Positions 7,531 to 8,505 of a DNA stretch of 64,000 nt are shown piece by piece (positions within the stretch are counted from its first letter, which is position 1; every line of letters starts with the position of its first letter). The notes below the pieces were generated by a model. It ran no database searches and had not been told where the DNA came from. It saw only the letters and a list, made by a program, of their open reading frames with translations. Source of the stretch: Austropuccinia psidii (Eukaryota; Basidiomycota; Pucciniomycetes; Pucciniales; Sphaerophragmiaceae); the NCBI GenBank assembly GCA_023105745.1, contig JALGQZ010000017.1, forward strand, positions 1,460,001-1,524,000, read 5' to 3'. Made by a program: the position numbers and the translations under genes.

Positions 7531-8505
7531 GTGTCTTTAATCAAATACTGTGCAGCTGGTAACAGACTCAGTAAAAGATACATCAATAGTCCAGAATCTG
7601 AAGACAGTATTGAGGTGCAGATTGCTAAAAGAGGCACCTTATTCAACTCAGAAAAAGCTAAATTACCACCAAAAGGTGTGTATTTTATCTTATATTTTTC
7701 ACCTTTTATCTTTAAATTGACGTGAAAATGGTGCATACCAGAAATGGAAGCAACTATTCAGTCCAACCAGATGGATGTGGACAAGGAAGAGGCAAGACCA
7801 AATCCAGAAGTGCCAAATCTTCCACAAGAAAGACACATCTGGAGGATGCCAGAGTTGCCCCCCATTCCCCAAGGTCTGTACCAACAGATTTTGACGTAAA
7901 TTCTGAGCCTGAACTGATTTATGGTAATATTTCCAGGGCTGAACCACTTTCAGGTGGCAGCAATAGAAATATATCAATGCCAGTACAAAAACTGGTTCAG
8001 AGCAGCCAAGGAAGAGGAGTGGGAAATCTGCCCAAGCCTTTGGCAGGGGGCTATGAACTCCTACTTACACATCAAGAGCTTTCTGGGTCAGGAGAAGACC
8101 ATAGAACTCTTAGGAGGATGGAGCCCCCTGTCTTGCAAAGACAAGGTCAAAAAGATAAAGAATTGGTTGAAGAACCAAAGTCTTTTATCCATAGACCAGA
8201 AGAAAGAGTTGGAAATGACTCCAGCTTTGGAGACAGAGGCACCAGTGGCATCTACCAGCTCCAAACCAGCTCCAGAAGCGTCCAAGGACAAGCCCAAAGG
8301 ACCTCAAAAGAAACAGAGAGGTCCCAAGAACCATCAAGGCAAGGGCAAAGGCAAAGCCAATTGGCACAGACCTTACCCACAAGGGTACAGGATCCCCAAA
8401 TTGGAACCTTCAGCCGTGGACAGTGTCTTCAATATGGCCAGAACTCTTATGGAATTCACAGCCAAGGAGCAGGAAAGGATGAAAAGGACTCTTCCACGCA
8501 AATAA
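7531..8505 (+). CDS. Putative spliced accessory protein overlapping gag (element A), about 281 codons
   Basis: I do not recognise a family, and this gene model is an inference. Three segments share one frame: 7531-7675, 7742-7873 and 7937-8505. The two gaps fit short fungal introns. Intron 1 is 7676-7741 (66 nt, GTGTGT..CCAG, TTGAC branch-like motif) and intron 2 is 7874-7936 (63 nt, GTCTGT..CCAG). The last segment lies +1 relative to gag-pol and ends at TAA 8503-8505. It encodes a tryptophan- and tyrosine-rich stretch (MNSYLHIKSFLG, GGWSPL), a Lys/Pro/Gly-rich basic stretch (GPQKKQRGPKNHQGKGKG) and a conserved end (GYRIPK, MARTLMEF). Element B encodes a 270-codon counterpart with the same motifs. 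The first segment has no ATG and follows an AG|TGTCT acceptor-like site, so a further upstream exon, perhaps supplying the A of a split ATG, is likely. The minimum supported part is 7921-8505. Confidence 0.55.

Follow-up and report, generated by a model that had tools for sequence, protein, structure and literature searches.

Genomic evidence for a spliced accessory gene whose last exon overprints gag in two diverged Ty3/Gypsy families of Austropuccinia psidii

The window, a 64,000-nucleotide stretch of the Austropuccinia psidii genome, contains two retroelements, A and B, in which the beginning of gag is overlapped in the +1 frame by a second coding sequence that is almost certainly the last exon of a real spliced gene. 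Both A and B are long terminal repeat (LTR) elements, and A has the Ty3/Gypsy layout, with LTRs flanking reverse transcriptase (RT), RNase H and then integrase. A piecewise Pfam scan of the A open reading frame (ORF) gave the order RVT_1, RT_RNaseH, Integrase_H2C2 and, past an in-frame stop, rve; the B ORFs scanned contained RT and RNase H domains. The integrase C-terminus of A exhibits a Chromo match (E = 8e-4, 19.7 bits) that lies under the curated cut-off of 25.1. The features are listed below, where a slash marks a splice site, a caret marks an exon junction and L numbers denote genomic copies.

5220..7143, forward strand: 5' LTR of element A, from self-alignment (3' LTR at 13571-15495; the pair is 99.07% identical).
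6616..7531, forward strand: predicted intron 0 of A, with donor CAACAA/GTAAGT in the LTR and acceptor AG/TGTCT; its removal would create A^TG.
7532..7675, forward strand: coding exon 1 of A, lying 5' of the gag ATG; length divisible by 3 in 38/38 loci, +1 stop in 3/38.
7676..7741, forward strand: intron 1 of A, 66 nt, holding the gag-pol ATG at 7728; exactly absent from L040, L041 and L043.
7728..7730, forward strand: gag-pol start codon, within intron 1 of A; ATG in 34/34 A loci that bear intron 1.
7728..12284, forward strand: gag-pol of A, frame 0, from the ATG at 7728 to an in-frame TGA at 12282-12284 within integrase.
7742..7873, forward strand: exon 2 of A (MEATIQSN..PPIPQ), from the sequence, intron-less copies and public gene models.
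7874..7936, forward strand: intron 2 of A, 63 nt, carrying the +1 stops; exactly absent from L039-L043 and skipped by public models.
7937..8505, forward strand: exon 3 of A, overprinting gag in +1, with a predicted helical N-terminal part, a basic middle and a GYRIPK..MARTLMEF C-terminus.
53391..55223, forward strand: 5' LTR of element B, from self-alignment (3' LTR at 61647-63481; the pair is 95.3% identical).
55369..55446, forward strand: intron 0 of B, 78 nt, TTATAA/GTGAGG .. TTTTAG/TGTCTGA; exactly absent from L072 and L073; its removal creates A^TG.
55447..55644, forward strand: exon 1 of B; length a multiple of 3 in 28/30 loci, +1 stop in 5/30.
55645..55710, forward strand: intron 1 of B, 66 nt, holding the gag ATG at 55697; absent from L072 and L073; donor GTAAGT in 28/30.
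55711..55800, forward strand: exon 2 of B, from public models and intron-less copies.
55801..55872, forward strand: intron 2 of B, 72 nt; absent from L072 and L073; donor GG/GTCAGT in 30/30; skipped by public models.
55873..56360, forward strand: exon 3 of B, overprinting gag in +1, from tblastn, alignment and selection.

The sequence-only reading of this DNA had proposed that a protein in the +1 frame recurs at the same place in both elements. A tblastn search of the whole window with the A protein gave as its only other significant match the B +1 frame at 55887-56348 (E = 4e-27; 35% identity over 179 amino acids). Within exon 3, 65 of 161 aligned residues are identical, and the +1 alignment of A with B scores 255, against a maximum of 24 among 200 shuffles. 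The motifs quoted earlier are present in B, with MNSYL..FLG and GYRIPK exact, GGWSPL appearing as HGWHPL and MARTLMEF as MARTMMEL, and the block from IYQ to MNSYL does align over 33 residues without a gap. The frame had also been described as open over the whole of 7742..8505; it is open from ~7918 (ORF 7921-8505), but two stops lie at ~7897-7917. Both stops fall inside intron 2, which is exactly absent from the five copies examined. Position 7742 is the first base of exon 2. The notion of a second protein overprinting the gag start is supported, with the addition that the gene is multi-exon, would be read from spliced RNA and has coding sequence before the gag ATG. The refuting conditions set beforehand, as far as examined, did not overturn it: few copies of either family have a stop in the +1 frame (1/38 A and 1/30 B loci, with gag-frame stops in 4/38 and 2/30); these counts and those of splice sites below come from the best-scoring matches at 38 A and 30 B loci and are biased towards intact copies. 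A chance ORF was rejected, as the third frame averages 10–11 stops per copy in the overlap and the +1 frame is nearly stop-free, and by the shuffle scores.

Copies without introns reveal the structure of the gene. The genome assembly (1.015 Gb) was searched for A copies with public model P0107 as query, with 150 of 45,912 first-look candidates scored, and for B copies with the three-exon public model P0224, with 149 of 46,711 candidates scored. Five A places (L039-L043) showed a contiguous match with no intron 2. L039 lacks only this intron; in L040, L041 and L043 intron 1 is missing as well, both gaps falling exactly at the GT..AG boundaries, and L042 resembles these three except that its first junction is one G short. 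A natural 131-base probe over the exon 1-exon 2 junction of L041, scored at 40 places of 147 candidates, spans the junction without a gap at seven (L040, L041, L043 and four others); at 33 places there is a piece starting at the junction, and 30 of those also have an exon-1 piece ending there. For B, the two contiguous places, L072 and L073, are both without introns 0, 1 and 2. Removal of B intron 0 joins TTATAA to TGTCTGAC, so that an ATG arises from the last base of one exon, A, and the first two of the following one, TG. The L072 junction reads TTATAATGTCTGAC, in which A^TG gives the start of M-SDNVVRQENIE, and in L073 the G of this junction start codon is now T (ATT). The precisely intron-less copies are, judged by their junctions, fossils of reverse-transcribed spliced RNA. 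As those examined retain the 5' LTR end and the leader, reverse transcription of the spliced RNA probably followed the usual LTR pathway. The exact absence of introns from genomic copies also indicates, indirectly, that a spliced subgenomic RNA encodes the accessory gene.

The splice sites are conserved among the copies that carry them. In A, donor 1 is exact in 32/34 loci and donor 2 in 33/33, with the AG of acceptor 1 in 34/34 and that of acceptor 2 in 33/33. In B, donor 0 is exact in 28/30, acceptor 0 (AG/TGTCTGA) in 29/30, donor 1 in 28/30 and donor 2 in 30/30, where strict text patterns had missed 10 donors 0 that are visible in the sequence and 3 donors 2, a site unchanged in all 30 loci. 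The intron 1 donor is degenerate in the window copy of B. Intron 1 encloses the gag ATG in both families, with its acceptor within Thr-Arg codons close to the Gag N-terminus (MVHTRNG in A, MPSTRSG in B). Intron 2 is in phase 1 in both families and lies 14 residues before the end of GLNHFQVAAIEIYQ in A and of ELTPPQEASVDIYK in B, these reference points being ..IEIYQ and ..VDIYK, respectively. Public gene models, which are computed predictions and not RNA, exhibit the same arrangement: A-type models of 232 amino acids skip intron 2 (P0002, P0031), the junction pattern is found in 42/120 A-type models, and the B models P0189 and P0224 have three exons and begin upstream of the gag ATG.

The 5' end of the A gene is a prediction. 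Exon 1 of A opens behind the same acceptor context as that of B, AG/TGTCT (7531/7532; 37/38 loci), and its +1 frame is without an ATG. The best upstream donor, CAACAA/GTAAGT (6615/6616), is exact in 36/38 loci, ends in A and is unchanged in L040 and L043 despite diverged bases just upstream. Splicing at these sites would remove intron 0 and join exon 0 to exon 1 as A^TG, giving an A protein of 281 residues as counted from the coordinates; overall, an accessory protein of about 260–280 residues is predicted. As a separate observation, exon 1 of the window copy of A has 15 bases (five codons, in frame) fewer than the other printed copies (7555-7600, compared with L004).

The two frames are offset such that the first base of a gag codon is the third base of a +1 codon. 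Permutation tests were made on eight chosen pairs of copies with 2000 rearrangements each; the pairs share L001, L040, L043 or L009 and are hence not independent. In the overlap of L001 and L043, the +1 frame has 10 amino acid changes where 26.7 are expected, and none of the 2000 permutations was as low, in agreement with the earlier suggestion that the +1 frame is the constrained one. Over the same stretch the gag frame is neutral (28 changes, 26.2 expected), and downstream it is protected (67 versus 108.6). The other A pairs gave 11 versus 21.1 changes in +1 (L001-L040), 8 versus 20.5 (L040-L043) and 7 versus 11.7 (L001-L041, P = 0.015), and the four B pairs gave 10–11 where 18–20 are expected. 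The +1 changes are thus below expectation in 8/8 overlap pairs from both families (weakest P = 0.015), and the gag changes in the overlap are at or above expectation in 8/8; downstream, the gag frame is protected in 7/8 pairs (weakly in L009-L031, P = 0.0115).

The same pattern was revealed by counts of differences at gag codon positions 1/2/3. Between L001 and the diverged L043 these are 30/2/7 in the overlap and 43/36/97 downstream (chi-square P = 3e-9), and between the intron-less L040 and L043, which are about 5% apart, they are 19/2/7 and 19/20/37. For polymorphism in A, the intron-less L039-L043 were left out, and among the 33 remaining intron-bearing copies the few polymorphic overlap sites show only a slight lean (6/4/4; downstream 30/26/68). 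Polymorphic sites in B are distributed as 17/4/1 in the overlap and 37/34/84 downstream, and the stretch 55450-55690 upstream of gag, which comprises exon 1 and the start of intron 1, has the +1 pattern as well (22/8/3, P = 1.5e-4). When the window copy of B was compared with the commonest base per column of 29 other B loci, the differences were 12/5/3 in the overlap, 37/28/75 downstream and 9/3/3 in 55450-55690. The LTR and leader of A (6300-7550), taken as a control, show no position bias (30/26/21, P = 0.45), and A exon 1 alone, which is too short for a firm test, leans to the +1 third position (6/2/1, P = 0.10). These results indicate that the accessory protein is under purifying selection.

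The earlier statement that no family could be recognised for the +1 protein was borne out by Pfam, PDB sequences and fold libraries, none of which gave a match. The first 83 residues of exon 3 were modelled as helical (predicted local distance difference test, pLDDT, 68.8; predicted template modelling score, pTM, 0.47), and fold searches with this only moderate model (Foldseek PDB, BFVD) found no match; the model of the full protein is poor (pLDDT 49, pTM 0.26). The composition is basic, with an isoelectric point (pI) of about 9.7–10.3 (9.7 for exon 3 of A and 9.8 for that of B), and this composition suggests nucleic-acid binding. A duplication of the element's own downstream gag was rejected as the origin of the protein (best E = 0.033 over 21 residues), and a scan of IMG/VR gave 159 pattern matches with no relative among them. 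Public proteins gave 919 matches to the A query and 547 to the B query; the best 120 of the 919 and the best 120 of the 547 are all hypothetical proteins of A. psidii MF-1, and the nearest among the matches listed, also from A. psidii MF-1, is 94% identical. Some of these relatives bear the UniRef label 'No apical meristem-associated', which was rejected, since six were scanned and had no such domain.

The copies also bear on the history of the two families. All 40 of the 40 A copies scored are ~99% or more identical to the window stretch, which argues that family A amplified recently. In the window element A, the integrase part of gag-pol is split by the in-frame TGA at 12282-12284, yet the +1 exons are open. 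L041 and L042 have an additional ~90–105 bases directly after the 5' LTR, and in L041 the sequence of the LTR-end/leader junction is repeated at the close of this extra stretch. The bases right after the 5' LTR of the window B (~55224-55240, the presumed primer-binding site) deviate from those of the other printed B copies, which read TTTGGGGGCCCAGC just past the 5' LTR (compared with L012). Some B-type matches are evenly spaced in the genome at ~8257 bp (C2:11395323, 11403580, 11411837; C4:13688995, 13697250), which is the LTR-to-LTR spacing of the window B and suggests tandem elements with common LTRs. Others are spaced at ~5256 bp (C4:18089473, 18094729, 18099985, 18105241; C5:27618325, 27623583), suggesting a shortened unit in a tandem array in which exon 3 is kept open. 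Further Ty3-type remnants lie in the window at 25551-28580 (reverse strand) and 40465-46616 (forward strand), with RT, integrase zinc-binding, SH3_Tf2-1 and chromodomain matches and, at 40465 in the second, a Retrotrans_gag match; a tblastn search of the 64-kb window found no significant relative of the A +1 protein in either.

The arrangement points to a switch at the level of splicing. Unspliced RNA would serve both as the genome and as the template for Gag-Pol, translated from the gag ATG. Removal of intron 1 would take this ATG away and make the +1 frame continuous, and the joining of exon 0 to exon 1, seen in one family B copy and predicted in A, would make a new ATG, so that the spliced transcript would yield the accessory protein in place of Gag-Pol. 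With one start codon lost and the other gained on splicing, the two products would be mutually exclusive, and we consider it very probable that splicing switches the RNA between them. The predicted protein comprises a putative helical domain, a basic region rich in Lys, Gly and Pro, and a putative helix at the C-terminus. It may bind the RNA of the element and help unspliced copies to be exported from the nucleus, stabilised or packaged, closing a loop in which early spliced RNA would give the protein and the protein would permit unspliced RNA to leave the nucleus. The combined reading, in which both diverged Ty3/Gypsy families have a spliced accessory gene with its last exon over gag and a product acting on the element's own unspliced RNA, is in our view somewhat probable.

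Regulators of the Rev/Tat/Rex type in complex retroviruses are small basic proteins encoded in overlapping frames of multiply spliced early RNA. The A and B proteins differ from them in that no homology was found, the host belongs to another kingdom and the overlap is with gag. In the BARE element, splicing reportedly gives more Gag, unlike in A and B, where another protein would come from another frame. BARE is similar in that one LTR-element transcript is split into RNA pools with different jobs (PMC3735527). In HIV-1, spliced RNA is packaged and reverse transcribed (PMC1868081), as the intron-less A and B copies imply, whereas the products here are integrated genomic copies. Plant LTR retrotransposons with additional ORFs (aORFs) likewise have a conserved extra protein besides gag-pol, sometimes from spliced RNA as in Bagy2, and the A/B gene differs from these in overlapping gag (PMC7264820). 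A close parallel to the proposed role is Cer1, a Ty3/Gypsy element of C. elegans whose protein CERV, the product of a spliced mRNA, resides in the nucleus and is needed to export the genomic RNA, with Rev of HIV cited as a parallel for the export of unspliced RNA (PMC10309623). As in A and B, CERV is an extra, element-specific protein without similarity to known retroviral proteins, and the unspliced Cer1 RNA retains host splice sites and is translated into Gag-Pol, which in A and B we infer (PMC10309623). The two differ in that the exons here run from the leader to 8505 and the last overprints the gag start, while the CERV ORF is at the Cer1 3' end; in that splicing here deletes the gag ATG and builds a new one; and in that export, shown for CERV, is for A and B an extension from it (PMC10309623). 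By this analogy the accessory protein would be nuclear and would bind and export unspliced RNA, a role that we propose tentatively and hold at somewhat less than an even chance.

Several observations weigh against the spliced-gene model or its functional part. Splicing is deduced from genomic sequence, and expression is presumed. Fossil copies are few, with five contiguous A places and two B places among the candidates scored, and no copy without A intron 0 was seen, L040-L043 keeping the donor and the sequence from ~6886 onward; this would be explained if removal of that intron deleted the presumed priming region after the LTR. One common subfamily of B has ~310 open codons in the +1 frame, and public model P0137 runs through introns 1 and 2, so that splicing of these two would not be needed there for an open frame; this subfamily may have a longer form of the protein in which the introns are retained. 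The gag-frame alignment of A with B also beats its shuffles (92.5 against a maximum of 34), which, together with a gag frame that is still open, suggests that gag is not free in the overlap and that both frames are used. The B control pair L009-L010 shows no downstream protection of gag (43 changes, 44.1 expected). The export function is drawn by analogy, with no Pfam, PDB-sequence or fold match, and from a protein whose ORF at the Cer1 3' end does not lie over gag.

Two other functions for the protein are less likely. As a suppressor of host silencing, acting on RNA interference (RNAi) or cytosine methylation, it would bind small RNA or chromatin through its basic region. Such a role would suit a basic predicted protein of no known family, the recent amplification of family A, and A. 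psidii transposable elements (TEs) that show CpG depletion and likely deamination of methylated cytosines (PMC8063080); against it, the sequence indicates no silencing target and there is no domain match. With a similarly low probability, the protein may be a structural or assembly partner of Gag, either a second, separately expressed Gag-like protein or a chaperone for RNA packaging. Its position in the gag region and its predicted helical and basic parts, which resemble matrix and nucleocapsid, are in line with this, but it has no similarity to the downstream gag of its own element and no CCHC knuckle, and the RNA encoding it would be without the gag start.

It is highly improbable that splicing merely lowers Gag-Pol output and leaves the +1 protein as a functionless by-product. 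The loss of the gag ATG with intron 1 in both families fits such an effect, but a by-product would not show the selection seen in all eight overlap pairs, and exon 1 of B has the same codon-position pattern. Equally improbable is an ancestral intron-less state with introns gained later, or gaps that are ordinary deletions: intron-less copies do occur in both families, but the gaps run from GT to AG, each of the two B copies has all three, intron 1 is carried at 33 of the 40 scored places, and it holds the gag start codon in all 34 intron-bearing A loci.

To our knowledge, gag-pol is usually the only gene content described for fungal LTR retrotransposons. A literature search of titles and abstract openings, which covered few subscription papers, found no accessory gene, whether spliced or overprinting gag, for fungal Ty3/Gypsy elements, and term look-ups in the available text of the A. 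psidii genome paper (PMC8063080) and of a rust TE-burst paper returned no mention of gag. The A. psidii genome comprises about 1 Gbp per haplotype, of which >90% is TEs, mainly Gypsy (PMC8063080). It is conceivable, though we would not yet bet on it, that fungal Ty3/Gypsy elements independently acquired the regulation of complex retroviruses, with a splice switch from Gag-Pol to a Rev/CERV-like regulator, a start codon A^TG formed only after splicing and an intronic gag ATG, and that this circuit drove the expansion of these elements until they filled a gigabase rust genome.

The genomic evidence gives two diverged, abundant families a third gene that is under selection and spliced more than once, and in which the start codons for Gag-Pol and for the new protein would be mutually exclusive. 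It also calls for caution with public rust annotation, where hundreds of 'hypothetical proteins' are this retroelement gene (919 and 547 matches, 240 of them listed). These findings allow a test of whether control of the Rev type arose outside animal retroviruses, and of whether it contributed to the extreme growth of TE content in a rust genome.
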